Origin: Hydrogenovibrio marinus | Lineage (GTDB): Bacteria > Pseudomonadota > Gammaproteobacteria > Thiomicrospirales > Thiomicrospiraceae | Reading direction: 5' to 3' | Assembly (NCBI RefSeq): GCF_013340845.1 | Contig: NZ_AP020335.1 | Location: 620,001-684,000, forward strand | Length of the DNA stretch: 64,000 bases | Shown: in pieces, positions 2,294-30,528 of the stretch | Position numbering within the stretch: position 1 is the stretch's first letter | Layout of the letters: the number at the start of each line of letters is the position of its first letter | The notes under the pieces: model-generated | What the model saw: the letters and a program-made list of their open reading frames with translations, nothing else | The model's database searches: none | Told to the model about the DNA's origin: nothing | Position numbers and translations under genes: made by a program

Positions 2294-2303
2294 GTAAGTT
2301 TTG

Positions 2304-3860
2304 ATGATTGCCAACTTTCCTGTGCCTCAAAAAGACGAGTTGCTTAGTAGTGTTTTGGCAAGATTTGTGGCGAGACAGGGCTTAGAAAGTCACAAAGTGG
2401 CATTAGATGTGTTGTTTGGTGATAGAAAGGTTGTGACATCGGCGCTTTTCCAAGGCCGAATAAACTTATTGTTGGAAAGAGTCGGTCATATTTGGAGTAC
2501 CTCTGAACAAGAGGTCGTCTATCAACATACTATGTTGCCATTATTTGCACCTTTTTTACCGTCTAATCAAGTAATGAAAATTATTGAAGATGTTTCCTTT
2601 AAGAAAGGGAATACGGTAAGTCTACGAACAGGCATGAACGCTTCTTTGCTTAATTGGCGCGAGAACTATATGTTTTGCCCGCAATGTTGGGAGTCTGAAA
2701 AAAGGGAGTTGGGATTTGTGTATTGGCATAGGAGCCATCAAGTACCAGGAGTCACTTATTGCTCTATTCATAATTGTAAGTTGGTTGATTCTGAAAAAAG
2801 TATGCAGCATACGCAGCGCCATGCTTTTGTTGTTCCCCAAATTCAGCAAGATAAAATGCTTTCTTGTAGTGAAGTTAAGCTGAACGACAGAGAGGTCTTG
2901 CTGTCTCAGTCGGTAAGCCAACTTTTTGAATTGCCATCTGATAGTTCAATGCTTGCAGGCATTTCATCCGACAAATGGAGTGCATTTTATTCTAACTATG
3001 CAGTTCAGCAGGGGTTTTTGAATGGAAGCCGGATTGATCATAAGCGCATAGAGCAGGCTATAATTGCCTTCTGGGGTAAAGAGTGGCTTAAGAAAAATGC
3101 GCTGTTCTTTGAAGGGGATGGTAGTTGGTTGAGGCGAATTTTTCAAAAGCATCGTCGAGGCTTTTCATACTTGCAGCATTTTGTTGTGTGGCTGGCAATA
3201 GAACAAAAGTCTATTGATGTTTTTGAGCGATTGAGTTGGGTAGAGTCTATTCAAAAGAAGGTAAAAAAGACAAAGTCGACCACTACTGATAGGGATGTTA
3301 AAGAGGTTCGATGCATGTGGTTGGATTTGAGGCGAAAGCAACCAGAAGCATCCCTAAAAATGCTTAGAGCAACTCAAGCAGGAGCGCGTTTGTATACCTG
3401 GCTTTATCGACATGATAGGGCATGGCTGGATGAAAACAAGCCAAAAAAGGTGGCAAATTATGTAAATTCGAGAGTTAATTGGCAAGAAAGGGATGACAAG
3501 TTGGTGCGCCAGTTGATTGTGATTATGCAAAGTAATGAGTTTGAGCTAGAAGGGCCAAGAAGAAGTAGGAGTTGGTATGCGAATAAACTGGGAGTCAAGT
3601 CCTTGATTGAAAAGCACCTTGATAAGTTGCCGAGGGTTTCATTGTTTTTTAGTAAATATTCCGAAACCATTGAAGAGTACCAATGTAGGCGATTAGCAAG
3701 GGTGCTGGCCGACCTTGTTTTAAAAAGTGAGCAATTAATTCCAATTTGCGAGGTGGAGAGATATGCAGGATTATCTGAGCAACGTAAAACAACAGCTGCA
3801 AGACGTATTGTTTCAAAGAGTGTCCCAGCCTGGCAGATATCTCAAATCATTTCCAAATGA
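2304..3860 (+). CDS. tnsD: Tn7-like target selector TnsD (TniQ family)
   Basis: TnsD/TniQ proteins bind a specific chromosomal attachment site and recruit TnsC; in Tn7 the site is at the end of glmS. The 518-residue product is close to Tn7 TnsD (508). The N-terminal TniQ domain (PVPQKDELLSSVLARF) is followed by a zinc-finger-like cluster starting near residue 124: CPQC, then YWHRSHQVPGV, then CSIHNC. The rest is helical and basic, as expected for site-specific DNA binding. An in-frame TTG at 2301 precedes the ATG; I use the ATG at 2304 behind TAGGTAAG. The last 98 bases overlap tnsE in another frame. No glmS is in the window, so the target this protein recognises cannot be read here. Confidence 0.9.
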   Translation: MIANFPVPQKDELLSSVLARFVARQGLESHKVALDVLFGDRKVVTSALFQGRINLLLERVGHIWSTSEQEVVYQHTMLPLFAPFLPSNQVMKIIEDVSFKKGNTVSLRTGMNASLLNWRENYMFCPQCWESEKRELGFVYWHRSHQVPGVTYCSIHNCKLVDSEKSMQHTQRHAFVVPQIQQDKMLSCSEVKLNDREVLLSQSVSQLFELPSDSSMLAGISSDKWSAFYSNYAVQQGFLNGSRIDHKRIEQAIIAFWGKEWLKKNALFFEGDGSWLRRIFQKHRRGFSYLQHFVVWLAIEQKSIDVFERLSWVESIQKKVKKTKSTTTDRDVKEVRCMWLDLRRKQPEASLKMLRATQAGARLYTWLYRHDRAWLDENKPKKVANYVNSRVNWQERDDKLVRQLIVIMQSNEFELEGPRRSRSWYANKLGVKSLIEKHLDKLPRVSLFFSKYSETIEEYQCRRLARVLADLVLKSEQLIPICEVERYAGLSEQRKTTAARRIVSKSVPAWQISQIISK

Positions 3861-5484
3861 TATCCCTTTAGATTATTTAGGTAGAATAAAAAAGGGGCAC
3901 AATCTAAATCGAAAATCCTTATTTGTTGAGGCTGTATTTGAGGGTGAAGCAAAAAAATTGTGGGTGCCAGTGGAATTATTACCTTTTTTAATCAAGGGGC
4001 GTGCCTATGGAAAGGTTGATAAACAAAAAACAACTGTGTCCAAGCAGTTTAAGGGGCGTCAGCTAAAGCAACTTGAGACATTTTATATTAGAAATGTTCA
4101 GCAAATTAAGGGTGTAAAAGTCAAATCCAATAATAGTTTCTATTTCAAGTTATTTACGGCTAATGGAGACTATCTTATTTCTGCTTTTGAATTAGCAAGA
4201 GCTTTGTATTTCCGCGATAAACATTTGGTTGATGCGGCTTTTCGACCGAATGGTCTATTTGAGTTGGCTTCCTATAACATCGGAGATAAGGAGGTGGAGA
4301 TAAGGTTTCCTGAAACTACTGAATATCCAGCCAGCAATTTAAATTGCCTACAGACGAAACAGCATTTAATTAATTTGTTTTTGAATGAAGATTATCGGAA
4401 GAGTTTTGGGAGTATTTTTGCGAAAAGATTCAAGGCTGAAAATAGCAATAACTTCCATTTTAATTTTGTACCGCCAAATCTCGATGGGTTGCATTTTGAG
4501 GTCTTGTGCAAAAAACTAAAAAATGTTGGCTATCTAGTATACGAGGTACGAGGCATACAAAACCGTTCATTCTTTTATGATGGTATTGTTCGTTTTATAC
4601 ACCCAAGAAAAAAAGATGTTGTAAAGACAGGTAGTTCTGGAGAAAGCGGCACTGGGGATAGGGTTATAAATCGTCCAAATCAATCTGATGAAATAGATTT
4701 GGATAAAAGTCCTGGTTTGGGAAAAAAGAAGAAAAAAATCGAAGAAAAAGACACATATTACCAAGTTTTGAACTCTGTAAGAACCATTGTAAATAGTCAT
4801 CAGGTTGAGAAGGAAACCGGAAAAAATTCTTCAGGGATGCCACAAGAAGGGAGTCGAATTAATTCCGGTGTAATATCGGCAGGAAAGAAGTTGGCCGAAG
4901 GTAGTGCGAATTTTGTTGAACCACATTTAAGTGGTGGTAGTTCTATTTCAGCTGTTAATGAAGGCGGTAATACAGTTGATAGGTTCCGCTTGTTCATTGA
5001 AACGATTGATAGTGTGGTGGACGCTTTGAAGTGTAAGGAATACAAAATATTCCATTTGCTACTTCCTAAGCCGGAAGCAGGATTTGAAAATGACAAGTGG
5101 AAAAACTTGATTACTGCTAAACCGAGGCTTGTTTGTGTGGCACAATTTCATTTCAAAAATGTAGTTTTTGTTGCTCTTGACGTTGATATTGCTGATTTGT
5201 CAAAGAGCCATACGATTAGTAGTAGGTTAGTGGTTTTTAAAAATGATGATAAAAATACTGAGAAAGATAAGCTCAAAATTATTTTACAGGCCTTGTCTAA
5301 TTCAAAAACTATAAGCTGGCCGAGTGCTGAAGTGTTTGACAAGATTTGTGATTTAGATGTTCGTATGATTCACCCGGCTAAAAAACTCTATGAGCATATA
5401 GAAAAACCTCAGGACAGAAAAAAATTTTACATTTCATATTGGGCAGAGAAGTGGCAAGAGAAAATCAAGGGTGTGTTTAAGTAA
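3763..5484 (+). CDS. tnsE: Tn7-like target selector TnsE
   Basis: TnsE directs Tn7 to discontinuously replicating DNA and conjugal plasmids through the sliding clamp. This 573-residue product (Tn7 TnsE is 538) shares recognisable blocks with it: ELARALYF near residue 143, FNFVPPNLDGLHFEV around 230, the EPHLSGG segment around 390 after a low-complexity Ser/Gly/Lys linker, and a C-terminal IHPAKKLYE block. The ATG at 3763 has GGTGGAG 6 bases upstream but lies 98 bases inside tnsD; similarity to Tn7 TnsE begins only about 30 residues later, so a downstream alternative start is possible. It is the last transposition gene. In Tn7, cargo genes follow tnsE. Confidence 0.85.
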   Translation: MQDYLSNVKQQLQDVLFQRVSQPGRYLKSFPNDIPLDYLGRIKKGHNLNRKSLFVEAVFEGEAKKLWVPVELLPFLIKGRAYGKVDKQKTTVSKQFKGRQLKQLETFYIRNVQQIKGVKVKSNNSFYFKLFTANGDYLISAFELARALYFRDKHLVDAAFRPNGLFELASYNIGDKEVEIRFPETTEYPASNLNCLQTKQHLINLFLNEDYRKSFGSIFAKRFKAENSNNFHFNFVPPNLDGLHFEVLCKKLKNVGYLVYEVRGIQNRSFFYDGIVRFIHPRKKDVVKTGSSGESGTGDRVINRPNQSDEIDLDKSPGLGKKKKKIEEKDTYYQVLNSVRTIVNSHQVEKETGKNSSGMPQEGSRINSGVISAGKKLAEGSANFVEPHLSGGSSISAVNEGGNTVDRFRLFIETIDSVVDALKCKEYKIFHLLLPKPEAGFENDKWKNLITAKPRLVCVAQFHFKNVVFVALDVDIADLSKSHTISSRLVVFKNDDKNTEKDKLKIILQALSNSKTISWPSAEVFDKICDLDVRMIHPAKKLYEHIEKPQDRKKFYISYWAEKWQEKIKGVFK

Positions 5485-5643: not shown

Positions 5644-6639
5644 ATGAACAAAAATAAATGTAGGGTTACAACAACAGAAGGTAAAGAGTTCGTTTCTGAG
5701 GGCTCTATGTCGATATTGGACTCGGCACTTGGTGCTGGGTTTATATTTGAATATAGTTGTAAAAACGGGCAGTGTGGTGTCTGTAAGACAACCTTGCTAG
5801 ACGGGGATGTTGAAGAGATTGCCCCTCAACAGTCGCTAACAAAGCAAGAAAAGCAGCAGGGCATGATCCTGTCATGTTGTTGTGAGCCTGTTTCTGATAT
5901 TTTGATTGATGCCGAAGATCTGAGCGCGCTACATGGCATTGAGATAAAAACTCTACCCGCTAGGATTAGCAGTATTCAGCAGATGTCACCAGATATTGTA
6001 GAGGTTGTTCTAAGGCTGCCGCCAACAGCTGATTTTAACTTTCTAGAAGGCCAGTATCTTGATGTGATTGGGCCTAATGGAGTTAGAAGAAGTTATTCAA
6101 TAGCAAGTTCTTCTTCACAAAAAGAAATTACTCTTTTAATCAAAAAGGTTGAGGGCGGGGTGCTAAGCCAATATTGGTTTTTCGATGCTCGAGAAAATGA
6201 CTTGGTTAGAATTGAAGGGCCAAAAGGCACCTTCTTTATTAGAGATTTGGGTAAGTCACTTTTATTTTTGGGTACGGGTACGGGTATTGCGCCAGTTATC
6301 TCAATGTTACAGGCCTTAGATGAAAAGGAAGGCTTTGTTCAAACACATCCAATACGAGTCTTTTGGGGTAATAGGTTCAAGGAAGATTTTGTGTTGTGCC
6401 CTAAGTTTAAAAGGCTGGATGTCGATTTTGTAAAGGTTTTGTCAAGACAGGATGATGTTTGGGTTTTTGAAACTGGTTATGTTCAGGATGTTGCTCTAAC
6501 AAAGGTGTCAGATTTGAATAATTTGCAAGTTTATGCGTGTGGTTCAAATGAAATGATTCAAAGTGCTAAAAGGAAGTTTTTTGATTCTGGCTTGCCTGAA
6601 AAAAACTTTTTTTCTGATGCCTTTGTACAAAGTTTGTAG
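5644..6639 (+). CDS. ddhD: CDP-6-deoxy-3,4-glucoseen reductase (E3)
   Basis: This flavin/iron-sulfur reductase passes electrons from NAD(P)H to the DdhC (E1) reaction intermediate to complete C3 deoxygenation of CDP-4-keto-6-deoxyglucose. The 331-residue product has an N-terminal plant-type [2Fe-2S] domain (C39-x4-C44-x2-C47 and a Cys cluster at 78-80), an FAD-binding motif (RRSYSIASSS), an NAD(P)-binding LGTGTGIAPV and a C-terminal CGSNEM motif. It opens a ddhD-ddhA-ddhB-ddhC series with the same gene order as in Salmonella (rfbI-F-G-H) and Yersinia. The ATG at 5644 follows an AT-rich leader with no strong ribosome site. Confidence 0.92.
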   Translation: MNKNKCRVTTTEGKEFVSEGSMSILDSALGAGFIFEYSCKNGQCGVCKTTLLDGDVEEIAPQQSLTKQEKQQGMILSCCCEPVSDILIDAEDLSALHGIEIKTLPARISSIQQMSPDIVEVVLRLPPTADFNFLEGQYLDVIGPNGVRRSYSIASSSSQKEITLLIKKVEGGVLSQYWFFDARENDLVRIEGPKGTFFIRDLGKSLLFLGTGTGIAPVISMLQALDEKEGFVQTHPIRVFWGNRFKEDFVLCPKFKRLDVDFVKVLSRQDDVWVFETGYVQDVALTKVSDLNNLQVYACGSNEMIQSAKRKFFDSGLPEKNFFSDAFVQSL

Positions 6640-6671
6640 TTTTGAGTTATTTAAATAATAGGATGCAGTAG

Positions 6672-7448
6672 ATGAAAGCAGTGATTTTAGCCGGAGGGTT
6701 GGGAACAAGATTAAGTGAAGAGACAAGTGTAAGACCAAAACCAATGGTTGAAATTGGTGGTAAGCCGATTCTTTGGCATATTATGAAAATGTACTCTGCA
6801 CACGGTATCAACGATTTTGTTATCTGTTGCGGATATAAAGGCTATGTCATCAAAGAGTATTTTGCTAACTACTTTCTTCATCAATCGGATGTTACTTTCT
6901 GTATGAAAGAAAATCGAATGGATGTCCATGAAAAACGTGCTGAGCCCTGGACGGTCACCCTTGTGGATACCGGGGATAACTCTATGACAGGTGGGCGCCT
7001 AGGTAGAGTTGCTGATTACATTAAAGATGAAGAAGCTTTTTGTTTTACATATGGAGACGGTGTTGCTGATATCAATATTAGTGAGTTGATTCAATTTCAC
7101 AAATCACATGGTAAACAGGCAACATTGACTGCAACTTATCCACCAGGTCGTTTTGGCGCATTAGACATTCAGGGACATCAAATTAAACAGTTTAAGGAGA
7201 AGCCCAAAGGTGATGGAGCCATGATCAATGGGGGGTTCTTTGTCCTTTCGCCAAAAGTTTTAGAAAGAATTTCAGGTGATGACTGTGTTTGGGAGCAAAG
7301 TCCCTTGGTGAGCTTGGCTGAAGACGGTGAGTTAATGGCATTTGAGCATGAAGGTTTTTGGCAGCCTATGGATACCTTACGAGACAAAACTCATTTGGAA
7401 GAGCTTTGGGATGCTAAAAAAGCTCCATGGAAATGTTGGGAAGAATAA
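6672..7448 (+). CDS. ddhA: glucose-1-phosphate cytidylyltransferase
   Basis: It makes CDP-glucose from CTP and glucose-1-phosphate, the first step toward CDP-3,6-dideoxyhexoses. The 258-residue product, a normal length for RfbF, has the nucleotidyltransferase signature [11 protein letters not shown] with the downstream [16 protein letters not shown], and the GDGVAD metal-binding segment. It begins 32 bases after ddhD and is followed after 3 bases by ddhB, indicating one operon. Nothing is unusual about the active site. Confidence 0.96.
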
Positions 7449-7451
7449 TTA

Positions 7452-8522
7452 ATGGTCGATAAGAATTTTTGGCATGGCAAAAAGGTCTTTCTGACTGGTC
7501 ATACCGGATTTAAAGGTAGTTGGTTATCCATTTGGTTGCAATCTTTGGGGGCTGTTGTGAAGGGTTATGCTCTTGCGCCACCAACTACTCCCAGTTTATA
7601 CGAAGAAGCAAGTGTAGATAAACTAATCGATTCTGAAATTGGTGATATCCGCAATCTTGATAAATTGACAATCAGCATAGTCAATTTTGATCCTGATATC
7701 TTGATTCATATGGCGGCGCAACCACTAGTAAGGCTGTCCTATAAAGAGCCTCTTGAAACCTATGACGTTAATGTAATGGGAACAGCTAAGGTGCTTGAGG
7801 CGGCAAGAGGTTGTGCAAACCTTAAAGCGATAGTCAGTGTCACCACAGACAAGTGTTATGAGAACAAAGAATGGGTATGGGGTTATAGAGAAGATGAGCC
7901 GATGGGAGGGCATGACCCTTATTCCAGTTCGAAAGGGTGTGCGGAACTGGTAACCTCTGCCTATCGTCGGTCTTTTCTTCAAGATGCTGGTATTGGTTTA
8001 GCATCGGCAAGAGCGGGTAATGTAGTCGGTGGTGGTGATTGGGCTGATGATAGGCTTATTCCAGATATTTTACGCGCATTTGAGCAAGAAAAACCCGTTA
8101 TTATTCGCAACCCAAAATCCACAAGACCATGGCAACATGTGTTAGAACCTTTGTCTGGATACTTGGTTTTAGCGCAAAAGCTTTATGAAGATCCTAGTGA
8201 ATACGCTGAAGGCTGGAATTTTGGTCCTAATGAAGAAGATGTGAAACCAGTTGATTGGATTTTAGACAAAATGACAGCATTATGGCCAAATTCTGAATGG
8301 AAGTTGGATGAAGGTGATCATCCTCATGAAGCTGGATATTTAAAGTTGGATGTTTCCAAAGCAAAATCCTATTTGCAATGGCATCCAATGTGGCGATTGG
8401 AACAAACCTTAGAGCGAATTGTAAAATGGCACAAGGCATGGCTGAATAAAGAAGATATGCAAAGTGTGTGCCTAGAAGAAATTAATGATTATATGAGAGA
8501 TATGGATAATGCAAACCACTGA
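7452..8522 (+). CDS. ddhB: CDP-glucose 4,6-dehydratase
   Basis: It converts CDP-glucose to CDP-4-keto-6-deoxyglucose. The 356-residue extended SDR has the NAD-binding [11 protein letters not shown] near residue 16, the [10 protein letters not shown] segment (Thr and Asp/Lys of the dehydratase active site) and YSSSKGCAE carrying the catalytic Tyr-x3-Lys. The [10 protein letters not shown] and TRPWQHV motifs are typical of RfbG. It overlaps ddhC by 14 bases, which suggests translational coupling. Confidence 0.96.
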
Positions 8523-9825
8523 ATCGATCAGAAATGAGATTTCGGAGTTGGTAAAGAAATATGCTGAACTGCAATATGCTGAAAAGCCGTTTGAACCAGG
8601 GAAATCGGTAGTTCCTCCTTCAGGAAAGGTTATTGGTGAATTAGAACTGCAGTATATGGTAGAAGCGTCCCTAGATGGGTGGTTGACTACGGGACGCTTT
8701 AATGAGCAGTTTGAAAAGGAATTGGCTGGATTTATCGGAGTGAATCACTTAATTACGGTTAATTCAGGCTCTTCAGCAAATTTAGTTGCATTTGCTGCGC
8801 TAACCTCTCCGAAATTAGGCGATAGGGCTATTAGAAAGGGAGATGAAGTAATTGGTGTTGCAGCAGGTTTTCCAACGACGGTGAACCCGATAGTCCAATT
8901 TGGTGCGATTCCAGTTTTTGTAGATGTCGATATTCATACTCATAATGTTAATGCTGACTTGATTGAAGCTGCTATTACGTCAAAAACCAAGGCGATTATG
9001 TTGGCACATACTCTTGGAAATCCATTTGATATTGCAAAAGTAAAAGCGATCTGTGAAAAATATAATTTGTGGCTTGTCGAAGACTGTTGTGACGCGCTGG
9101 GTGCCAAGTACGGTGGGCAACATGTTGGGACTTTTGGTGATATCGCAACATGCAGTTTTTACCCTGCGCACCATATTACGATGGGTGAAGGTGGAGCGGT
9201 TTTCACAAATAACCCTCAGCTGATTACGATTGCGGAGTCATTCAGAGACTGGGGAAGAGATTGCTACTGTAAGCCTGGGTGTGATAACACCTGTGGCACT
9301 AGATTTAATATGCAACTTGGCGATTTGCCTCAAGGCTATGACCATAAATACACTTATTCACATCTTGGTTACAACCTAAAGATTTCAGATATGCAAGCCG
9401 CTTGTGGATTGGCACAGTTGAAACGTCTCCCTGAATTTATCGCCAAGCGAAATGCCAATTTTGACTATTTGAAAAACCGTTTGTCCACCTTGGCTGATTT
9501 TCTTGAATTGACTGATGCAACCGAAAATTCAACGCCATCGTGGTTTGGTTTTCCTATTACGGTAAAAGAATCAGCCGGGGTTAAGCGTGTTGATTTAACA
9601 AAATATCTAGACCAGCAAAAGATAGGAACTAGACTTCTGTTTGCGGGAAATTTAATTAGGCAGCCATATTTTAAAGATATTGAATATCGCATTGTTGGTC
9701 AATTAGGCAATACTGATAAAACCATGAACCAAACCTTTTGGTTGGGCATTTATCCAGGGTTGAAAAAAGTGCATTTAGATTATGTTGTGGAAAGGATGGA
9801 AGAATTCTTTGGAGTAGGGTTTTGA
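8509..9825 (+). CDS. ddhC: CDP-4-keto-6-deoxyglucose-3-dehydrase (E1)
   Basis: This PMP/[2Fe-2S] enzyme of the DegT fold removes the C3 hydroxyl together with DdhD. The 438-residue product shows [13 protein letters not shown], where the usual PLP-binding Lys of aminotransferases is replaced by His, the hallmark of E1 dehydrases. The Cys-rich stretch [11 protein letters not shown], which ligates the iron-sulfur cluster, is intact. The expected product is CDP-4-keto-3,6-dideoxyglucose, the branch point for abequose, paratose, tyvelose, ascarylose or yersiniose. No abe, prt or tyv gene follows, so the ThDP enzyme at 12814-14616 is the likely next user. Confidence 0.95.
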
Positions 9826-9877: not shown

Positions 9878-10759
9878 ATGATTAAAAAAGTGACAGTAGG
9901 AATTGTCGGTACAGGAAATATTGGAACGGATTTATTAATGAAAATTCAACGTTCTAAGTACCTAGAGTGTTCAATTTTTGCAGGCCGAAATCTTGCATCC
10001 TCAGGAATGAGTAGGGCAGCATCAATGGGTGTTAGGGTTAGTGATGAGGGTATTGATGCGATAGTTAACCAGCCAGACTTATGTCAAATAGTATTTGATG
10101 CTACTTCAGCGGGAAGTCATTTAATTCATGCTCCCATATTGAAGTCTTTGGGTAAGTTTGTGATTGATATGACGCCTGCAAAAATTGGATTGTTGTGTGT
10201 TCCAGAAGTAAATTTAGAGAAAGCAATCAATTCGAATAATGTGAATATGATTACTTGCGGGGGGCAGGCATCTATACCTTTAGCATATGCTATAACAAAG
10301 GTTCATCCTGAGATAAACTATATTGAAACAGTGTCCACAATTGCTTCAAGAAGCGCTGGACCTGGCACGAGAATCAATATTGATGAGTATATTGAGGCAA
10401 CAGAAAAAGGGTTAAAAAAATTTTGCAAAGTTGAAAATGCGAAAGCCATGATTAATTTGAATCCTGCCAATCCCGCTATAGATATGCAGACTTCAGTGTT
10501 GGTTGAGGTTGATAATCCTAATATAAAAAAAATAGAGTTAGAAATTGATCAAATGGTTTCACGTATACAAAGATACGTTCCTGGCTATAAGTTAGTGTTG
10601 CACCCAACTTATGATAGTGGGCGGCTTTTAGTTACTGTAAGAGTTCAGGGTGTTGGTGATTATTTACCAAAATTTGCAGGAAACTTAGACATTATTAATT
10701 GCGCAGCCATTAATGTGGCTGAACATTACGCATTAAAGCTAGTAGAAGGTGTGAAGTAA
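9878..10759 (+). CDS. acylating acetaldehyde dehydrogenase (MhpF/DmpF type)
   Basis: This family interconverts acetaldehyde, CoA and NAD+ with acetyl-CoA and NADH, usually in complex with the aldolase encoded next door. The 293-residue protein has the Rossmann motif GTGNIGTDLLMKI and the catalytic-Cys motif ITCGGQASIP. The stop overlaps the aldolase start as TAATG, as in meta-cleavage catabolic operons. No other aromatic-degradation gene is near; instead the pair sits between ddhC and sugar-nucleotide reductases. Its role here is inferred: it may supply acetaldehyde or acetyl units for a branched sugar. RBS GAGG lies before ATG 9878. Confidence 0.88.
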   Translation: MIKKVTVGIVGTGNIGTDLLMKIQRSKYLECSIFAGRNLASSGMSRAASMGVRVSDEGIDAIVNQPDLCQIVFDATSAGSHLIHAPILKSLGKFVIDMTPAKIGLLCVPEVNLEKAINSNNVNMITCGGQASIPLAYAITKVHPEINYIETVSTIASRSAGPGTRINIDEYIEATEKGLKKFCKVENAKAMINLNPANPAIDMQTSVLVEVDNPNIKKIELEIDQMVSRIQRYVPGYKLVLHPTYDSGRLLVTVRVQGVGDYLPKFAGNLDIINCAAINVAEHYALKLVEGVK

Positions 10760-11781
10760 TGAGCAAAAATATTGATGTTACTTTATATGATGTGACTTTA
10801 CGAGATGGTTCTCATGCCATTAAGCATTGTTTAACCAAAGAGCAGATAGTTAACTATGCTAGTTTAGCCGACGCAGCCGGAGTTGGTGTTGTTGAAGTTG
10901 GTCATGGAATTGGATTGGGTGCATCTTCTTTGCAAATTGGAAAAAGCTTGCTAGCAGATGAAGAGATGCTGACGTTGGCAAGAGATTGTTTGAAAAGTTC
11001 ATTACTGGCGGTTCATGTGGTGCCGGGTTATGCAACAGTTGCAAGGGATATCTCTTTGGCGATTGATTGTGGTGTTGATGTTGTAAGGGTGGCTGCGCAA
11101 TGTACCGAAGCTGATACTACAGAACAGCATATTTCATACGTTAGGGGAACAGGTAGAAGGGTATTTGCTGGGCTAATGATGGCTCATATGATTTCACCAG
11201 AGATGTTGGTGCAGGAAGCATTGAAAATGGAGTCGTATGGCGCTGAATGTATAACGATTTTGGATTCCGCTGGAGCGTTTTTGCCAGAAGATGTCTATAA
11301 GCGGGTTAGTTTACTTGTAAAGTCACTAAATATTCCTGTAGGGTTTCATGCGCATAATAATTTAGGGATGGCGATTGCAAATTCTTTAATTGCAGTTAAA
11401 GCTGGGGCAACCATAATTGATGGATCAATATCTGGCTTTGGCGGTGGGGCTGGGAATGCAAGCATTGAACTTCTTGCAGCCGTTTTTTCGATGGAAAAAT
11501 ATAGCACAGGTGTTGACTTATATAAATTGCTTGATGCTGCAGATATGGCAGAAGATATTTTTGAAGTTCTGCCCAAAATTACTAGTTCAAGTGTCGTTAG
11601 CGGTATGAGTGGTGTTGTTTCAGTTTTTTCAAAACCTGTTGCTCGCGCAGCTGAAATCTACAATGTTGATCCAAGAGATGTTTTTTTTGAGTTAGGCCGA
11701 TTAGGAGCAATTGCAGGGCAGGAGGATTTGATAATTGAAGTTGCTCAAAACTTAGCTGAAAAGGTAGTTGATGATGCGTGA
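10759..11781 (+). CDS. 4-hydroxy-2-oxovalerate aldolase (MhpE/DmpG type)
   Basis: A class II, metal-dependent aldolase that reversibly splits 4-hydroxy-2-oxovalerate to pyruvate and acetaldehyde. The 340-residue TIM-barrel protein retains the catalytic residues of the family: TLRDGSHA near the N terminus (Arg, Asp, His) and the metal-binding GFHAHNN near residue 195, followed by the DmpG communication domain. It is translationally coupled to the dehydrogenase before it and overlaps the next SDR gene. Together with the ThDP enzyme it suggests that a hydroxy-oxo acid, rather than simply pyruvate, could be the acyl donor for a branched sugar; that is inference. Confidence 0.9.
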   Translation: MSKNIDVTLYDVTLRDGSHAIKHCLTKEQIVNYASLADAAGVGVVEVGHGIGLGASSLQIGKSLLADEEMLTLARDCLKSSLLAVHVVPGYATVARDISLAIDCGVDVVRVAAQCTEADTTEQHISYVRGTGRRVFAGLMMAHMISPEMLVQEALKMESYGAECITILDSAGAFLPEDVYKRVSLLVKSLNIPVGFHAHNNLGMAIANSLIAVKAGATIIDGSISGFGGGAGNASIELLAAVFSMEKYSTGVDLYKLLDAADMAEDIFEVLPKITSSSVVSGMSGVVSVFSKPVARAAEIYNVDPRDVFFELGRLGAIAGQEDLIIEVAQNLAEKVVDDA

Positions 11782-12814
11782 TTTTATTGCGAAAGATTTA
11801 GAGCGCTCACTTGATGATATCTTGGAGCAGCTAAGTCCTTTAAGGGGGGCGGAGGTATTAATAACTGGTGGTACAGGCTTTGTAGGCTCATGGCTTGCAA
11901 GAGCACTGTGCTGGTTAAATGATTATAGAGCTTTTGATACTAAAATAATCTTATTATCGAGAACACCTTTGAAGTTAAAGGAAGCCGATGAGTGCTTTTT
12001 TGATAGGAGTGACGTTTCGTTTATTAAATCTGACATTAGAAGCATCAAAGAATTGCCACAATCAATAAGTTACATTATTCATGCAGCAGCCAGTCCAGAT
12101 AATAGGGTTCATATGTCGGACCCTGTGAATACCATGGATGTGATTGCAAATGGTACAAAATCGATACTTGATGCAGCATCAAGGTTGGCTGATTTAAAGT
12201 GCGTTATGCATCTGAGTTCAGGGCAGGTTTATGAAAGCTTGAATAATGGAGAATTAATTGAAGAAGGCAGGCAAAGATGTGGCTTGAAATCAGGTATAAC
12301 TTCTATTTACCCTGAAGCGAAACAATTTTCTGAGTCTTTGTGTATGGCATATAGGAGTCAATACAAAGTTCCTGTGGTTGTTGTGAGACCTTTTGCCTTT
12401 ATAGGGCCATTTCAAAGCTTAAATAAGCCATGGGCCGTAAACTCTTTTCTACAAGAGGCATTAAATGCTCAGCCAATAAGAATTCTTGGAAATGGAAAGC
12501 CTAAGCGAAGCTATTTATACGCTACGGATATGGCGGCATGGCTTTTGGCAATGCTTGCAAGTGGGCGCGATGGTGGGGTCTATAATTTAGGTTCCTCTGA
12601 AGAAGTATCGCTTCTCGATGTTGCAGTAGCAATCAATTCAATACTAAAAGACAAAGTAGATATTGTTGTAAAAGAAATAGATTCATCTGAGTCAAAATTT
12701 ATTCCAGATTTATCCTTCGTTAAGGAAAGTTTTAAGGTTAAGGAAAATTTCAGTTTTACCGAGGCTTTGAACCGCACAGTAGAGTGGAATCTTTATAGGT
12801 TGGGAAGAAAGTGA
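11771..12814 (+). CDS. SDR-family sugar-nucleotide reductase/epimerase
   Basis: A 347-residue extended SDR with GGTGFVGSWLARA at the N terminus and the catalytic Tyr-x3-Lys in YPEAKQF, preceded by the LSSGQVYE serine. It resembles NAD-dependent epimerase/dehydratases that act on nucleotide sugars, including CDP-sugar 4-reductases. Lying between the aldolase and the ThDP enzyme, with overlaps at both ends, it probably acts on the CDP-3,6-dideoxy-4-keto sugar or its branched product, as YerF does in yersiniose synthesis. The substrate cannot be read from sequence. An in-frame TTG (11768) and ATG (11774) flank the chosen ATG; AAGG at 11761-11764 fits 11771. Confidence 0.75.
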   Translation: MMRDFIAKDLERSLDDILEQLSPLRGAEVLITGGTGFVGSWLARALCWLNDYRAFDTKIILLSRTPLKLKEADECFFDRSDVSFIKSDIRSIKELPQSISYIIHAAASPDNRVHMSDPVNTMDVIANGTKSILDAASRLADLKCVMHLSSGQVYESLNNGELIEEGRQRCGLKSGITSIYPEAKQFSESLCMAYRSQYKVPVVVVRPFAFIGPFQSLNKPWAVNSFLQEALNAQPIRILGNGKPKRSYLYATDMAAWLLAMLASGRDGGVYNLGSSEEVSLLDVAVAINSILKDKVDIVVKEIDSSESKFIPDLSFVKESFKVKENFSFTEALNRTVEWNLYRLGRK

Positions 12815-14616
12815 TGAACAAAATAAGGGTGGCAGATTATATAGCGAATTACCTATATGAAGTGTTGGGTATAGAGCATGTGTTTCTAGTGACAGGTGGA
12901 GGTGCTATGTTTTTAAATGATGGCGTTGCCAAGCATGGGAAGTTGATCCCTATCTGCAACCATCATGAGCAAGCATCAGCTATGGCAGCAGTGGGATATG
13001 CAAAATATCAAAATTCCTATGCTGCAGTAATGACAACAAGTGGGTGTGGTGCAACTAATGCTGTGACAGGGGTGTTAGATGCTTGGCAAGACAATACGAG
13101 CGTATTTTTTATATCTGGTCAAGTCAAGAGAAAAGAAACAGTTTATAACTCGGAGCATAACGTCCGACAAGTAGGGGTGCAAGAGGCGAATATTGTTCCT
13201 ATAGTTGAATCCATTACAAAGTACTCGGTGATGATTAATGATCCTACAGAGATTGCATACCATTTGGAAAAAGCAGCATTTCTGGCAAAAAATGGTCGTC
13301 CAGGACCTGTTTGGTTAGATATTCCGCAAGATGTTCAGGGGGCAATGGTAGAGCTGGATAAGTTGAAACACTTTGATGTATCTCGTGAATGTGCTGAACA
13401 TTTTGCTCATGCAGAGGTTGAGGTAGAAGCGTTTTATGAGGTTTTGATGAACTCCAAAAGACCTATTATTCTTGCAGGGAACGGAGTAAGGTTGGCTGAT
13501 GCTGTGCCTGAGTTTAATGAAATGGTTCTAAAATATCAAATCCCAGTTGTTACTACGTATTTAGCTATTGACCTTCTGAGTAATAGTGCCTTGAATATTG
13601 GACGAGTTGGGATTAAAGGTGATAGAGCAGGGAACTTTGCATTACAAAATTCTGACCTAGTGGTTGTCTTAGGTTCTAGGTTATCTGTTGCTGTAACAGG
13701 GTTTGAATACGATTTGTTTGCAAGAGATGCTCAAAAATATGTTGTTGATATCGACAAAGAAGAGCACATGAAAAACACAGTTCAAATAGATGAGTTTATT
13801 CACATGGATGTAAAAAAGTTCCTTTTAACATTAAATGGTTTTGCTCATGCTAAGTTGGCAATTGATGGTTGGCGGGACAAGTGCATTCATTGGAAGGAAA
13901 AATGGCCGGTAGCATCATCAAGTTATGAAATAAACAGTGCGCCTGTTAATTTATATACATCTATAAAATATTTAGAAAAGTATTTAAAAAAAGATACTGC
14001 GGTGGTCGCAGATGCTGGGTCTGCATATTATGTCACCGCGCAAGCGTTGCAAGTCAATTATCAGCAAAGGTACATTACTTCGGGTGCTCAAGCCGATATG
14101 GGTTTTTCAATTCCAGCTGCTATCGGAGTATCTGTAGCGAAGGCAGGAGAGGTTGTGGCGATTACAGGGGATGGATCATTTCAGATGAACATCCAAGAGC
14201 TACAGACAATAGTGCAGCATAAACTACCAGTAAAGCTTTTAATTTGGAATAACAATGGGTACCTATCAATCCGAACAACGCAGAATAAGTTTTTTGATGG
14301 CAGGTTAATGGGAACTGAATATGAGACTGGGATTTCATTTCCTGAAGTGGAGAAAATTGCAAAAGCATATGGCATAAGCTTTTACAAAGTCGAAACTCTA
14401 AGCGTTTTAGATAGTGTCTTGAAACAAGTTATGTCGGCAGATGGACCTGTAATTTGTGAAATAATTGCACCGCCTGATCAGGAGATTATACCTACGGTAT
14501 CTTCTATTAGAAGAGATGACGGTACTATGCTTTCTATGCCTTTTGAGGACATGTATCCATTTTTGCCGAGAGATGAATTTCTTAAAGAAATGATTGTTGC
14601 CCCCATTGGTATATAA
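12814..14616 (+). CDS. ThDP-dependent acetolactate-synthase-like enzyme (YerE-like)
   Basis: The 600-residue protein has all three ThDP-enzyme domains. The N-terminal Pyr domain has the cofactor-activating Glu in CNHHEQASAMAA, a central domain follows, and the C-terminal PP domain has GDGSFQMN...WNNNGY, which binds the diphosphate and Mg. In this context it is most like YerE, which transfers an acetyl unit from pyruvate to C4 of CDP-3,6-dideoxy-4-keto-glucose in yersiniose synthesis; it is far from any ilv gene and has no small subunit next to it. ATG 12814 overlaps the stop of the preceding gene. Donor specificity (pyruvate or a longer 2-oxo acid) is unknown. Confidence 0.82.
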   Translation: MNKIRVADYIANYLYEVLGIEHVFLVTGGGAMFLNDGVAKHGKLIPICNHHEQASAMAAVGYAKYQNSYAAVMTTSGCGATNAVTGVLDAWQDNTSVFFISGQVKRKETVYNSEHNVRQVGVQEANIVPIVESITKYSVMINDPTEIAYHLEKAAFLAKNGRPGPVWLDIPQDVQGAMVELDKLKHFDVSRECAEHFAHAEVEVEAFYEVLMNSKRPIILAGNGVRLADAVPEFNEMVLKYQIPVVTTYLAIDLLSNSALNIGRVGIKGDRAGNFALQNSDLVVVLGSRLSVAVTGFEYDLFARDAQKYVVDIDKEEHMKNTVQIDEFIHMDVKKFLLTLNGFAHAKLAIDGWRDKCIHWKEKWPVASSSYEINSAPVNLYTSIKYLEKYLKKDTAVVADAGSAYYVTAQALQVNYQQRYITSGAQADMGFSIPAAIGVSVAKAGEVVAITGDGSFQMNIQELQTIVQHKLPVKLLIWNNNGYLSIRTTQNKFFDGRLMGTEYETGISFPEVEKIAKAYGISFYKVETLSVLDSVLKQVMSADGPVICEIIAPPDQEIIPTVSSIRRDDGTMLSMPFEDMYPFLPRDEFLKEMIVAPIGI

Positions 14617-14625
14617 GTAATATTT

Positions 14626-15561
14626 ATGAAAATAGCAATCCTTGGGGCAACAAGTCAAATAGCAAAAGATTTAATTCTGTCGATTAGAGATAGAGAGCCA
14701 GAGCATGAACTTATATTATTTTCTCGTTCAAATAAAAAAGTGTCTGAACAGTTTGAATTGTTGGGGGAGAGCGTAAATTACCCATGTTTTGAATATGTTG
14801 ATTTTAATGAACAGTTTAGCTTTGATGTAATTATTAATTTTATTGGGATTGGTGATCCTGCAGCTGCACTTGATATGGGGCGAGATATATTTGAGGTTAC
14901 AGAGTATTTTGATAATTTAGTACTAAACTATCTAAGAAACTGTCCTAGCAGTAAATATATTTTTATAAGCAGTGGAGCCGTATTTGGTGGAAACTTTGAA
15001 AGGCCAGTTGATAATAATACTACTTCAGTTATTCACCTTAATCAATTGCAGCAGACTGATTGGTACGGTGTCGCTAAACTTAATGCAGAGGCAAAGCACC
15101 GTGCGATACAACATTTTGATATTGTTGACGTTCGGGTATTTAATTACTTTAGTAGTACACTGAACGTTAATGCACGTTTTCTAATAACGGACATAATTCG
15201 TGCAATAAAAAATAAAGAAAAATTACAAACAGCACCCGAAAATATTGTTCGAGACTTTATTACACCAGTCGATTTTTACTACTTAATTTCTAGAATAATC
15301 CAGTCGCCACCTGGAGTTAACTTTGCTTTAGACTGCTATACAAAGGAACCTGTTGATAAATTCAGTTTGCTAAATACCTTCTCAGAAAAATATGGACTGG
15401 AGTATTGTATTAAGCGAGATGGAGTATCTGTGAATGCGACAGGTGCTAAGCTTAACTATTACTCTATAAATAAAATAGCTTACAAAGTTGGCTATCAACC
15501 ATCAATGACTTCACTAGAGGGAGTTTTGGATCAGGTCAGAAAAATGAGTTTGATATCGTAA
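14626..15561 (+). CDS. SDR-family reductase, probable YerF-like role
   Basis: A 311-residue NAD(P)-dependent SDR with GATSQIAKDL at the N terminus and YGVAKLNAE as the catalytic Tyr-x3-Lys, preceded by ISSGAVFGG. It is distant from well-named families. Its place directly after the ThDP enzyme suggests it reduces the newly added acyl side chain, as YerF does for yersiniose, but this is by context only. It overlaps gmm by one base. The DNA is among the most AT-rich of the locus. Confidence 0.7.
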   Translation: MKIAILGATSQIAKDLILSIRDREPEHELILFSRSNKKVSEQFELLGESVNYPCFEYVDFNEQFSFDVIINFIGIGDPAAALDMGRDIFEVTEYFDNLVLNYLRNCPSSKYIFISSGAVFGGNFERPVDNNTTSVIHLNQLQQTDWYGVAKLNAEAKHRAIQHFDIVDVRVFNYFSSTLNVNARFLITDIIRAIKNKEKLQTAPENIVRDFITPVDFYYLISRIIQSPPGVNFALDCYTKEPVDKFSLLNTFSEKYGLEYCIKRDGVSVNATGAKLNYYSINKIAYKVGYQPSMTSLEGVLDQVRKMSLIS

Positions 15562-16013
15562 TGCTGTCATTAAAAGCTTTTGCAGGATTAATAGAGAATG
15601 CACCGTTGGTGTCCATTGATTTACTTGTAAAAACAGATTCGCGGTTTTTACTGGGCAAAAGAATTAATAAACCAGCAAAAGGATTTTGGTTTGTGCCTGG
15701 AGGTCGAGTCTACAAGGATGAAACGATTGCTATGGCGATAAGGCGGATTTCATGCAAAGAAATAGGTAAAGAGCTATTTCTTGATGAGTTCGATTTTTTT
15801 GGGGTGTTTGAACACTTTTATAGTGATAGCTTTGTTTCAGAAGATGTTTCAACGCACTACATAGTGCTTGCATATAAGATAAAGTTGGATGTTCTACCTC
15901 AATCTATTCCAATGTCAGAGCATGATGAATTCAAGCTGTTTTCAAGAAGTGAAATTTTTCAGCACGAGTCCGTGCATGAATATACAAAACAGTATTTTAC
16001 AGCAAAGGTTTAA
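15561..16013 (+). CDS. gmm: GDP-mannose mannosyl hydrolase (Nudix)
   Basis: The 150-residue protein has the modified Nudix box typical of Gmm/Wca[20 protein letters not shown] followed by a truncated helix without the canonical REUXEE. Gmm hydrolyses GDP-mannose or GDP-glucose to GDP and the sugar and may balance GDP-sugar pools. It is common next to gmd in colanic acid, fucose and colitose clusters, and here it precedes gmd by one base. Confidence 0.88.
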
Positions 16014-16014
16014 T

Positions 16015-17130
16015 ATGAAAAAAGCGTTGATTACCGGGGTAACCGGACAGGATGGATCTTACTTAGCGGAGTTTTTATTGGAAAAAGGGTATGAGGTTCA
16101 TGGAATTAAACGGCGGGCATCTTCGTTTAATACACAAAGAATCGATCATATATTTCAAGATCCGCATGTCGAGAATGCCCGGTTTAAGCTCCACTACGGT
16201 GACTTGACGGACTCCTCGAATTTGACACGCATCCTAAAAGAGGTTGAACCTGATGAGGTCTATAACCTTGGAGCGCAATCTCATGTTGCAGTCAGTTTTG
16301 AATCGCCTGAGTATACAGCAGATGTTGATGCCATAGGTACCTTACGCCTTTTGGAAGCGATTAGGTTCCTTGGGTTGGAAAAGAAGACTAAATTTTATCA
16401 AGCGTCGACGTCAGAATTGTTCGGCTTGGTACAAGAAACTCCTCAGAAAGAAACAACACCTTTTTATCCACGTTCACCGTATGCAGTGGCAAAGATGTAT
16501 GCCTATTGGATTACTGTAAATTATCGGGAATCTTATGGGATGTATGCCTGCAATGGGATTTTGTTTAACCATGAATCACCGCGTCGTGGAGAAACCTTTG
16601 TAACCCGTAAGATTACAAGAGGGTTGGCGAATATCGCTCAAGGTTTGGAGCAATGTTTATATATGGGTAATATGGATGCACTTCGTGACTGGGGGCATGC
16701 AAAAGACTATGTCAGAATGCAGTGGATGATGTTGCAACAGGACCAGCCTGAAGACTTTGTGATCGCAACCGGGGTTCAATATTCCGTTAGACAATTTATC
16801 GATTGGTCTGCCAGAGAGCTTGGAATTACTCTTAAGTTTGCGGGGGAGGGGGAAAAAGAAATCGCTGTTGTTGAGAAAATTGAGAGTTCTAATGCTCCGG
16901 CATTAAAAGTTGGAGATGTCATCGTTAGAGTCGATCCACGTTATTTCCGTCCTGCAGAAGTGGAAACCTTGCTGGGAGATCCTTCAAACGCTAAGGAAAA
17001 GTTGGGATGGATGCCGGAAATTACAGTGCAAGAAATGTGTTCGGAAATGGTTGCAGAAGATTTGAAAGTTGCCAAGCGTCATGCACTTTTGAAAAAGCAT
17101 GGGCATGACATTCCTGTTTCCGTGGAGTAG
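16015..17130 (+). CDS. gmd: GDP-mannose 4,6-dehydratase
   Basis: It converts GDP-mannose to GDP-4-keto-6-deoxymannose, the common precursor of GDP-fucose, GDP-perosamine and GDP-colitose. The 371-residue product has [16 protein letters not shown] at the N terminus, the STSELFG serine/threonine segment, and [10 protein letters not shown] as the catalytic Tyr-x3-Lys. The frame is open back to 15889, but ATG 16015 gives the conserved N terminus and immediately follows the gmm stop. It feeds colD and the ColC/Fcl-like enzyme downstream. Confidence 0.96.
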
Positions 17131-17139
17131 GAAGAGCTC

Positions 17140-18063
17140 ATGAAGATATTGTTAACCGGCGCTAATGGCATGGTGGGAAAAAACATTCTCGAATCAGCTT
17201 TATCCTCTCAATTTGACTTTATTTTTCCATCAAGCTCGGAGTTGGACTTGCTTGATAAGGAACAAGTGGGTCGTTTCATGAAAAAACATTCTCCCGATAT
17301 GGTTATTCATGCAGCCGGGATTGTTGGGGGCATTCAAGCCAATATTGCAAATCCAGTGAAATTCCTAGTGGATAACATGCAAATGGGATTGAATATACTA
17401 ACCGAAGCGAGAGATGCTGGCGTTACACGTTTTATGAATATGAGTAGCTCTTGCATGTATCCCAGAGGTGCTCAAAACCCTTTATCGGAAGACTTGATAC
17501 TAAAAGGGGAACTTGAGCCTACAAACGAAGGTTATGCACTAGCAAAAATTGCCAGCACCCGTCTTTGTGAATATATCCGTCGAGAAGATGAAGAGTATTT
17601 ATATAAAACTGTGATTCCATGTAATCTCTATGGCAGGCATGACAAGTTTGATCCAAACCACTCACATATGATTCCCGCCGTGATTCGAAAGATATCAGAA
17701 GCAAAAGAGCAGGGCAAAGAGGTCATTGATATATGGGGTGATGGTCTGGCAAGAAGGGAGTTTATGTATGCCGGGGATTTAGCAAATTTCGTGTTTTATG
17801 CAATATCGAAGTTTGAAGAAATGCCTCAAAATATCAATGTAGGCCTGGGGCACGATTACACGATAAATGAATATTATCGGGCCATCGCCGATGTTATTGG
17901 TTTTGACGGGGAGTTTGAACATGATTTGTCAAAACCTGTAGGAATGAAACAAAAGTTGATTGATGATAGTCAGTTAAAAGAGTTTGGTTGGCGTTATAAA
18001 ACTTCATTAGAAGATGGAATTCAGAAAACATATCAGTTTTATTTAGAGAGTATAAACAAATGA
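17140..18063 (+). CDS. GDP-colitose synthase ColC or GDP-L-fucose synthase Fcl
   Basis: A 307-residue bifunctional epimerase/reductase of the GDP-fucose synthase family, with GANGMVGKNI at the N terminus, the MSSSCMYP segment and YALAKIAS carrying Tyr-x3-Lys. Family members act either on GDP-4-keto-6-deoxymannose (Fcl, giving fucose) or on its 3-deoxy form (ColC, giving colitose). Because colD follows with a 4-base overlap and no other ColC candidate is present, ColC is the better guess; sequence inspection alone cannot exclude Fcl. Confidence 0.85.
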   Translation: MKILLTGANGMVGKNILESALSSQFDFIFPSSSELDLLDKEQVGRFMKKHSPDMVIHAAGIVGGIQANIANPVKFLVDNMQMGLNILTEARDAGVTRFMNMSSSCMYPRGAQNPLSEDLILKGELEPTNEGYALAKIASTRLCEYIRREDEEYLYKTVIPCNLYGRHDKFDPNHSHMIPAVIRKISEAKEQGKEVIDIWGDGLARREFMYAGDLANFVFYAISKFEEMPQNINVGLGHDYTINEYYRAIADVIGFDGEFEHDLSKPVGMKQKLIDDSQLKEFGWRYKTSLEDGIQKTYQFYLESINK

Positions 18064-19229
18064 GTAATTATCCATTAGCGTCCAGCACGTGGGATGAGAA
18101 AGAATTGGCAGCCATTCAGAAAGTGGTCGACTCCAATATGTTTACGATGGGTAAATATGTTGCAGAATATGAGAAACTTTTTGCTGATTATTTTGGCTCG
18201 AAATATGCAGTGATGGTCAGTTCGGGCTCAACGGCGAATTTATTAATGGTCGCCGCTTTATTCTATACCCAAAATGAAAAGTACAAGCTTCAAAGAGGCG
18301 ATGAAGTGATTGTTCCTGCCGTTTCATGGTCGACGACCTACTACCCGTTATATCAATATGGCTTGAAGATAAAGTTCGTCGATATCGATCCGCAGACCTT
18401 GAATATGGATTTAAATCAGCTGGAACTTGCGATTACAGATAAGACAAAAGCCATTTTGGCAGTCAACCTCCTTGGTAATCCAAACGACTTTTCCAAAATC
18501 CATGAGGTCATCGGGGATAGAGACATTCTTCTGTTAGAAGACAACTGTGAATCAATGGGAGCATCTTTGCAGGGGCAACAAGCCGGAACTTTCGGGTTGA
18601 TGGGAACTTATAGTTCATTCTTCAGCCATCATATCGCAACGATGGAAGGTGGCTGTATCGTGACGGATGATGAGGAACTATATCACATCCTTTTGTGTAT
18701 CCGAGCGCATGGTTGGACACGAAACCTGCCAAAAGAAAATTTGGTGTCCGGCACCAAAAGTGATGACCCATTTGAAGAAGCCTTTAAGTTCGTTTTGCCG
18801 GGTTATAATGCCCGACCGCTTGAAATGAGTGGCGCAATCGGGATCGAACAGTTAAAAAAATTACCTAGCTTCATTAAGAACCGCCAGGAGAATGGCGCGT
18901 ATTTTACGGAGTTGTTTTTAGATCATCCATATTTGCAAATACAGCAAGAAATAGGTAAGAGCAGCTGGTTTGGCTTTTCACTAGTGATAAAAGATGGCTC
19001 AGAAGTTAACCGAAGTCAGATAGTTTCGAAGCTGATGGAAGGTGGAGTTGAATGTCGTCCAATTGTGTCGGGAAATTTTGCAAAAAACGAAGTTGTTAAG
19101 TATTTTGATTATGAAATCCATGACTCGTTAGATAATGCTGAATATATTGATGTAAATGGTTTTTTTGTGGGTAATCATCAGTTTGATATAAAAAACAAAA
19201 TCTCTGACCTGCGCAAGTTATTGGGTTGA
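18060..19229 (+). CDS. colD: GDP-4-keto-6-deoxy-D-mannose 3-dehydratase
   Basis: This PLP/glutamate-dependent enzyme of the DegT fold removes the C3 hydroxyl in GDP-colitose synthesis. The 389-residue product contains FFSHHIATMEGG, with His in place of the usual PLP Lys, and long blocks recalled from Escherichia coli ColD, such as RAHGWTRNLPKEN, KFVLPGYN and GNFAKNE. ColD needs no ferredoxin-reductase partner, unlike DdhC. It is coupled to the ColC/Fcl gene and ends 4 bases before the next glycosyltransferase gene. Confidence 0.95.
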   Translation: MSNYPLASSTWDEKELAAIQKVVDSNMFTMGKYVAEYEKLFADYFGSKYAVMVSSGSTANLLMVAALFYTQNEKYKLQRGDEVIVPAVSWSTTYYPLYQYGLKIKFVDIDPQTLNMDLNQLELAITDKTKAILAVNLLGNPNDFSKIHEVIGDRDILLLEDNCESMGASLQGQQAGTFGLMGTYSSFFSHHIATMEGGCIVTDDEELYHILLCIRAHGWTRNLPKENLVSGTKSDDPFEEAFKFVLPGYNARPLEMSGAIGIEQLKKLPSFIKNRQENGAYFTELFLDHPYLQIQQEIGKSSWFGFSLVIKDGSEVNRSQIVSKLMEGGVECRPIVSGNFAKNEVVKYFDYEIHDSLDNAEYIDVNGFFVGNHQFDIKNKISDLRKLLG

Positions 19230-30020: not shown

Positions 30021-30528
30021 AAGATTGTCATTGTGTATAGTCAAAACTCCTCTAGATTAGCGCTAAATTTATCATTATCAATATTGCTTCTAACAACAGT
30101 CTTTTCGTGGTTTCTCTTTCCTATTTTGGTGAAGTTTCTTGCCCCTTTTGCATTTAGGCTTGGATTCATTCTAATTTTTTCGATGGCTATCATCATAAAT
30201 TTTAAATACAGTACTGCAAATAAGCTTACTTTTTCGAAAGAAGAGAGACTTTTGTTTTTGTTTTGGGTGGGGTATTTGTGTACTTTGACTGTAGCAACTA
30301 TTATTGCTAATGATTTATATGCCTATATACAGCTTTCAAGTAGGATACTTAAAGTATTATTCTTTGTTTTTTTATTGTTTTATATTGATAAGACTTACAT
30401 CTATAAAATATTTTCAATTTATGCAAACCTGATGTCTGTGATAGTTATTATGGCAATCATTGAACTGGTCTAATGGAAACGGACACTTCAATGAGAGACA
30501 ATAGATGTTGTCGAATCTAGGAGTGGTT

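Follow-up and report, generated by a model that had tools for sequence, protein, structure and literature searches.

A 64,000-nt stretch of Hydrogenovibrio marinus DNA (contig NZ_AP020335.1, positions 620,001 to 684,000; hereafter, the window) contains five open reading frames (ORFs) at 9878-15561 on the + strand, directly behind the genes ddhD-A-B-C (5644-9825). All five ORFs of this cassette were intact and, in cassette order, encode 293, 340, 348, 601, and 311 amino acids (Table 1). The first four genes overlap by 1, 14, and 4 nt, and the fifth follows after a gap of 9 nt. A sequence-only reading of this DNA had described five overlapping or closely spaced genes after ddhD-A-B-C and had assigned them to an MhpF-like dehydrogenase, an MhpE-like aldolase, a short-chain dehydrogenase/reductase (SDR), a YerE-like thiamine diphosphate (ThDP) enzyme, and a second SDR. 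Every gene was found where it had been placed, and Pfam and NCBIfam searches backed the families. The ThDP enzyme scored below the cut-off of each NCBIfam model listed (best 25 of 54), and the second SDR (sdr2) had no NCBIfam match.

Table 1. Features of the window discussed in the text, with coordinates in the window and the evidence for each assignment.
Feature	Coordinates	Strand	Evidence
Tn7-like genes	88-5484		Mu-type transposase C-terminal piece, TniB-like ATPase, TnsD/TniQ
ddhD-like reductase	5644..6639	+	Pfam Fer2, FAD_binding_6, NAD_binding_1; 61% to T. arctica, 41% to soft-rot locus
ddhA, glucose-1-phosphate cytidylyltransferase	6672..7448	+	TIGR02623 483.1 bits, cut-off 300.25
ddhB, CDP-glucose 4,6-dehydratase	7452..8522	+	TIGR02622 514.1 bits, cut-off 278.45
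ddhC/RfbH, CDP-4-keto-6-deoxyglucose 3-dehydrase	8509..9825	+	NF011936 752.6 bits, cut-off 423
Acylating acetaldehyde dehydrogenase, MhpF/DmpF type	9878..10759	+	TIGR03215 376.7 bits, cut-off 282.25; alignment, tree
4-hydroxy-2-oxovalerate aldolase, MhpE/DmpG type	10759..11781	+	TIGR03217 358.7, cut-off 286; DmpG_comm domain
Extended SDR (sdr1)	11768..12814	+	Epimerase family; 64% in L002, 57-59% in L003/L004/L006, 35% in L100
YerE-like ThDP enzyme	12811..14616	+	acetolactate-synthase-like; HHEQAS, GDGSFQMN motifs; 68% to L002, 40% to soft-rot enzyme
SDR (sdr2)	14626..15561	+	SDR domain; alignment with relatives at 45-56% identity
Nudix GDP-mannose mannosyl hydrolase	15561..16013	+	NF011963 160.2 bits, cut-off 146
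ORF	30033-30473		no Pfam match
IS3-family transposase gene	30840-31691		
ORF	31707-32546		weak Wzy_C match, 22.5 bits, cut-off 31.7
Second IS3-family transposase gene	41153-42004		same translation as the first

The upstream genes ddhA, ddhB, and ddhC scored above the curated cut-offs and, together with the domains of the ddhD-like reductase, constitute the gene set for cytidine diphosphate (CDP)-4-keto-3,6-dideoxyglucose. The dehydrogenase passed the curated equivalog score for DmpF/MhpF and retained the catalytic Cys127. The aldolase passed that for DmpG/MhpE and retained R15, D16, H19, H197, and H199, the places of the metal and catalytic residues of DmpG. The catalytic residues of the pair are thus kept, as the earlier reading had stated. 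The DmpG communication domain had a single match in the whole genome (2.49 Mb, one contig), which was the cassette aldolase. The first SDR (sdr1) contains a YPEAK motif, and Tyr147 and Lys151 of sdr2 were invariant in a four-sequence alignment. The solved structure nearest to the ThDP enzyme in a search of the PDB was 8rph, which carries a CDG motif.

The branched sugar erwiniose, which has ten carbons, is already known, and the exopolysaccharide of Pectobacterium atrosepticum comprises galactose, mannose, rhamnose, O-acetyl groups, and erwiniose (PMC8657720). The enzyme ErwE of this species is reported to prefer 4-hydroxy-2-oxo acids and to refuse pyruvate, with ligation in vitro to an acceptor analogue (PMC12247030). 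In the pathway that we propose for the cassette, the MhpF-like enzyme would convert acetyl-coenzyme A (CoA) to acetaldehyde, probably driven by NADPH, and the MhpE-like aldolase would join acetaldehyde and pyruvate to form 4-hydroxy-2-oxopentanoate, probably in the 4R form. The ThDP enzyme, which we infer to be an ErwE-type ligase, would decarboxylate this five-carbon acid and add a four-carbon 3-hydroxybutanoyl unit to C-4 of CDP-4-keto-3,6-dideoxy-D-glucose, the product of ddhA-D. One SDR would then reduce the new ketone and the other would perform a further reduction or an epimerisation; sdr2 is the candidate reductase of the branch ketone, and sdr1 may supply the additional reduction or the epimerisation. 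Six plus four carbons give ten, which matches erwiniose. From gene content and residues, we consider it probable (roughly 0.8) that the product of the cassette is CDP-erwiniose or one of its close stereoisomers, a reading that proposes how erwiniose synthesis obtains its unusual hydroxy-oxo acid donor. The earlier proposal that MhpF and MhpE run in the synthetic direction and feed a five-carbon acid to the ThDP enzyme is still the best reading of the pair. Its claim of a new branched-sugar pathway did not survive, because erwiniose was already known, the donor of ErwE has been reported, and homologues of all five genes lie together in a polysaccharide locus of a soft-rot genome. In all likelihood, the chemistry first proposed was right, yet belongs to a known sugar.

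The soft-rot genome (G550) carries rpoB at 86% identity to that of Escherichia coli and has five pectate lyase matches, three of them in neighbouring genes; by inference it is most likely a Pectobacterium. Its locus holds wza-wzb-wzc-like genes, a sugar-phosphate transferase gene, ddhD-A-B-C, and a gene for an HpcH/HpaI aldolase. These are followed, in order, by homologues of the ThDP enzyme (40% identity to the window), sdr2 (46%), mhpF (59%), mhpE (57%), and sdr1 (35%), and then by transport, acetyltransferase-like, and glycosyltransferase-like genes, manC, manB, rmlD, rmlC, rmlA, a galU/galF-like gene, and gnd (names mostly assigned by eye from translations; HpcH_HpaI by Pfam). No rmlB was seen in the 35 kb of the locus examined. 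The locus fits the published P. atrosepticum polymer of galactose, mannose, rhamnose, O-acetyl groups, and erwiniose. An mhpE of the locus kind was found in 2 of 25 genomes of the genus (G550 included). The broad searches with ThDP enzymes scored at most three candidates per genome, and matches were found in at least 8 of 370 genomes, in at least 6 of 394 genomes of one order (the search from which G550 was drawn), and, with the G550 enzyme, in at least 1 of 392 genomes of its family (G550 itself); ErwE-like enzymes that rank behind acetolactate synthases may escape such searches.

When named genomes were scanned for relatives of the window's ThDP enzyme, the best 80 of at least 570 confirmed relatives were retained. 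Among the matches listed, the closest was that of Thiomicrorhabdus arctica (L002, 68%), and the ten genes from ddhD to the Nudix hydrolase gene stood in identical order in the two genomes. The five-gene set, sought in other loci, was thus found in T. arctica in the same order and in G550 as homologues in another order. The order mhpF-mhpE-sdr1-ThDP was common to Arcobacter (L003), Sulfuricurvum (L004), and a Mariprofundaceae metagenome-assembled genome (L006), and in L026, L037, and L038 mhpF and mhpE adjoined a ThDP enzyme of approximately 40% identity. Overall, loci from five phyla had mhpF and mhpE adjoining a ThDP enzyme of this kind. An aminotransferase-like gene (class I/II by eye) lay immediately upstream of the ThDP enzyme in L005 (62%), L007 (56%), and L008 (55%). 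In L054 and L059, such a gene lay downstream of a YerE-like enzyme. In these five loci, conversion of homoserine to 4-hydroxy-2-oxobutanoate would be one possible donor route. When 60 loci (window included) were clustered, the DmpF and DmpG families were present in 8, an HMGL-like gene (approximately 533 amino acids) in 32, an HAD-like gene in 22, and an aminotransferase-like gene in 5. The 32 HMGL-type loci, mostly of Clostridia (e.g., L011, L015, and L031), often encoded an HAD phosphatase-like protein, and many had ddh genes. Many loci were short contigs, in which a missing neighbour is weak evidence.

The ThDP tree (78 rows; SH-aLRT support only) left out hits below 250 bits or 480 amino acids and the short L055, L056, L057, and L061; five of the more distant relatives were kept as an outgroup and the remaining distant ones were dropped. 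The enzyme of the window grouped with L002, L003, L004, and L006 (support 99), with L005 joining next (99). The DmpFG label (14 rows; assigned by hand for L088, L089, and L091, in which full mhpF genes were present) required 6 changes on the tree vs 13.2 when shuffled (0 of 500 shuffles as low), a difference inflated by near-copies (L100 and L139; L087 and L104 are one gene entered twice). On plasmids, the ThDP query matched 8 records at no more than 30.7% identity, and none was near. A relative of 36% identity, L090 (G426:C4:22905-24668), has internal stops (one TGA and two TAA) and is probably a decayed gene.

Within the window's family, DmpG was found in 2 of 62 genomes (G000 and G021) and the ThDP enzyme (E up to 1e-110) in 3 of 62 (G000, G021, and G007). 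Both DmpG genomes were among the three ThDP genomes, for which the chance by simple counting is 3 in 1891. G007, of the window's genus, had ddh genes at 70-93% identity and no DmpG; in its locus (L102:4444-11760; names by eye), behind the ddh genes come HAD-like, HMGL-like, SDR, dehydroquinate-synthase-like, and sugar-kinase-like genes, with the ThDP enzyme (43%) after them. The supply module thus differs between the window and G007 behind one shared ddh front end. The G007 locus could be a carbocyclic branched-sugar locus.

Known yersiniose synthesis requires YerE and a reductase only, with no supply genes, whereas the cassette holds two further supply genes inside an overlapping run. Were the ThDP enzyme nevertheless to take pyruvate, the product would be plain yersiniose, and mhpF and mhpE would be passengers or serve unrelated metabolism. 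Such an activity would agree with the general motifs kept in the enzyme and with YerE, which uses pyruvate and the same acceptor (PMC12247030). We dropped this explanation as very improbable because mhpF and mhpE overlap other cassette genes, recur beside such ThDP enzymes as described, and fall on a branch of their own (see below), and because the only DmpG of the genome lies in the cassette.

The 14 DmpFG pairs of the loci were compared with 13 comparators, namely E. coli MhpF/MhpE and 12 plasmid-borne pairs chosen among the best 40 of 279 records. A degradation-type neighbour was found for 11 of the 13 (E. coli mhp and ten plasmids). Comparator L144 adjoins TRAP transporter genes, and L141 (Phaeobacter piscinae plasmid pP23_c) adjoins ATP-grasp, aminotransferase, and MFS transporter genes. 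The L141 pair, which carries the signature of the polysaccharide loci (see below), looks biosynthetic; possibly, it makes a hydroxylated amino acid. The dehydrogenase loop was G-I-D in 12 of 13 comparators, G-I-D or G-V-D in five solved dehydrogenases, and G-R-(N/S/H/R) in all 14 locus rows (11 first, then three G-R-N rows of one genus), with G36-R37-N38 in the window. A G-I-D loop is read as NAD-type, and Arg plus a neutral residue replacing Ile-Asp where the second strand ends as NADP(H)-type. Positions of the aldolase BphI were mapped via the alignment with DmpG (BphI itself was not aligned), and an offset of minus one alone puts Leu, Leu, and Tyr together at BphI 87, 89, and 290. At the Leu87 place, 12 of 13 comparators had Leu and all 14 locus rows had His, Phe, or Tyr; at the Tyr290 place, the same numbers had Tyr and Val or Phe, respectively. 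The window has H86 and V287 at these places, and the soft-rot aldolase has His and Phe. L141 was the exception among comparators at all three signature places; it was counted as a comparator for residues and treated as its own group in trees. In the MhpF and MhpE trees, a 100/100 branch split the other 12 comparators from the locus rows and L141.

A catabolic pair, which would degrade 4-hydroxy-2-oxovalerate from aromatics and have been placed here by accident, would account for the family membership given by the curated models. However, no degradation gene was seen adjoining the pair, which has polysaccharide neighbours instead, and G-I-D together with Leu and Tyr at the stereochemical places was present in 12 of 12 comparators (L141 apart) vs 0 of 14 locus proteins, the window showing the GRN loop, H86, and V287. 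This explanation, which we regard as extremely improbable, was dropped on the neighbours and the residue signature.

In BphI, 4S control is lost when the hydroxyl of Tyr290 is removed, and the L87N/Y290F or L87W/Y290F variants give the 4R product (PMC3962088 and PMC4012138). The His and Val of the window differ from the actual residues of these mutants. From the signature, the locus aldolases are predicted to make the 4R acid and the dehydrogenases to use NADPH. The full name of erwiniose is 3,6,8-trideoxy-4-C-(R-1-hydroxyethyl)-D-gulo-octose, from which an R configuration at C-7 is derived; a 4R acid would give C-7 R. The same logic applied to a longer or substituted acyl-CoA, such as propanoyl-CoA, would lead to an erwiniose homologue. 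ErwE is reported to take 4-hydroxy-2-oxohexanoate as well (PMC12247030), and the window has Val at the place of BphI Leu89, where L89A admits longer aldehydes (PMC3962088). Val or Ile at this place is a small change that also occurs in 3 of 12 comparators (L141 apart), and no unusual acyl-CoA gene was seen by eye beside the cassette; we therefore consider a homologue unlikely.

On balance, we lean slightly toward a wider reading with two parts: that polysaccharide loci of several phyla share a backward-running, NADPH-dependent, stereo-inverted DmpFG branch that makes (4R)-4-hydroxy-2-oxopentanoate, a natural counterpart of BphI L87N/Y290F and L87W/Y290F, and that exchangeable donor modules (DmpFG; HMGL-type aldolase plus HAD phosphatase; aminotransferase) feed YerE-like enzymes. 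No description of the supply module, of the locus DmpFG branch, or of its residue signature was found in the open-licence papers searched. If the wider reading is true, the neighbouring donor module predicts the branch of the sugar. The signature may distinguish DmpFG pairs that work in synthesis from those that work in degradation. Natural 4R-type aldolases would also be of use in biocatalysis, should they be confirmed.

Several observations weigh against the erwiniose reading. The ThDP enzyme is only 40% identical to the soft-rot enzyme, itself no more than a candidate ErwE, and identity between the sdr1 proteins of the two loci is 35%. An additional HpcH/HpaI aldolase is encoded in the soft-rot locus and lacking in the window; it could make the donor in the soft-rot locus. 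L005, at 62% identity, adjoins an aminotransferase gene and has no mhpF or mhpE in the 11.7 kb examined, so that donor choice is not fixed in the ThDP clade. No ddh gene was present in the stretch examined for L026, L038, and L153, three of the 14 DmpFG-type loci. Because the locus rows and L141 share one branch, the signature residues are marks of a single lineage and not of 14 independent events. Finally, a gene with weak similarity to Wzy contains an IS3 element, whose transposase gene is placed between two ORFs (Table 1), so that polymer formation is uncertain.

Downstream of the cassette, a Nudix mannosyl hydrolase, gmd, an fcl-like SDR, and an RfbH-like DegT enzyme (15561-19229) suggest a second 3,6-dideoxy sugar, perhaps of the guanosine diphosphate (GDP)-colitose kind. 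The Nudix hydrolase more likely serves these adjoining GDP-sugar genes than the branch. Where the O locus ends, the second IS3-family transposase gene adjoins a DNA ligase gene. The Tn7-like genes lie directly upstream of the O locus, and among them a TnsE C-terminal match fell just under the cut-off. The O locus as Tn7 cargo was considered and dropped: in tblastn searches, the Tn7-like genes were unmatched upstream of ddhD in T. arctica (L137) and G007 (L135 and L102), and in both genomes, as in the window, a homologous DNA ligase gene lies close to where the O locus stops (element ends were not searched).

Compared with known systems, the cassette shares with erwiniose synthesis, as represented by the soft-rot genome, the grouping of ddhA-D, a YerE-like enzyme, mhpF, mhpE, and two SDRs within a single polysaccharide locus, and also the ten-carbon arithmetic. 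The two differ in gene order, in the ThDP enzyme (approximately 40% identity), in the polysaccharide partners, and in the HpcH/HpaI aldolase. With yersiniose synthesis by the YerE of Yersinia, the cassette would share the CDP-4-keto-3,6-dideoxyglucose acceptor and ThDP-dependent ligation at C-4 (PMC12247030), whereas yersiniose has a pyruvate donor and an acetyl branch. The DmpFG, MhpEF, and BphIJ catabolic pairs have both families and the catalytic residues in common with the window pair, which differs by its G-R-x loop, its His and Val at the stereochemical places, its separate branch, and its proposed opposite direction. MMAR_2332 of caryophyllose and JanthE differ from the window enzyme in their donors, and the caryophyllose branch is longer. 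MMAR_2332 and JanthE-type enzymes are YerE-like enzymes with longer 2-oxo acid donors, and the CDG motif reported for JanthE (PMC12247030) is also present in 8rph, the structure nearest to the enzyme of the window.

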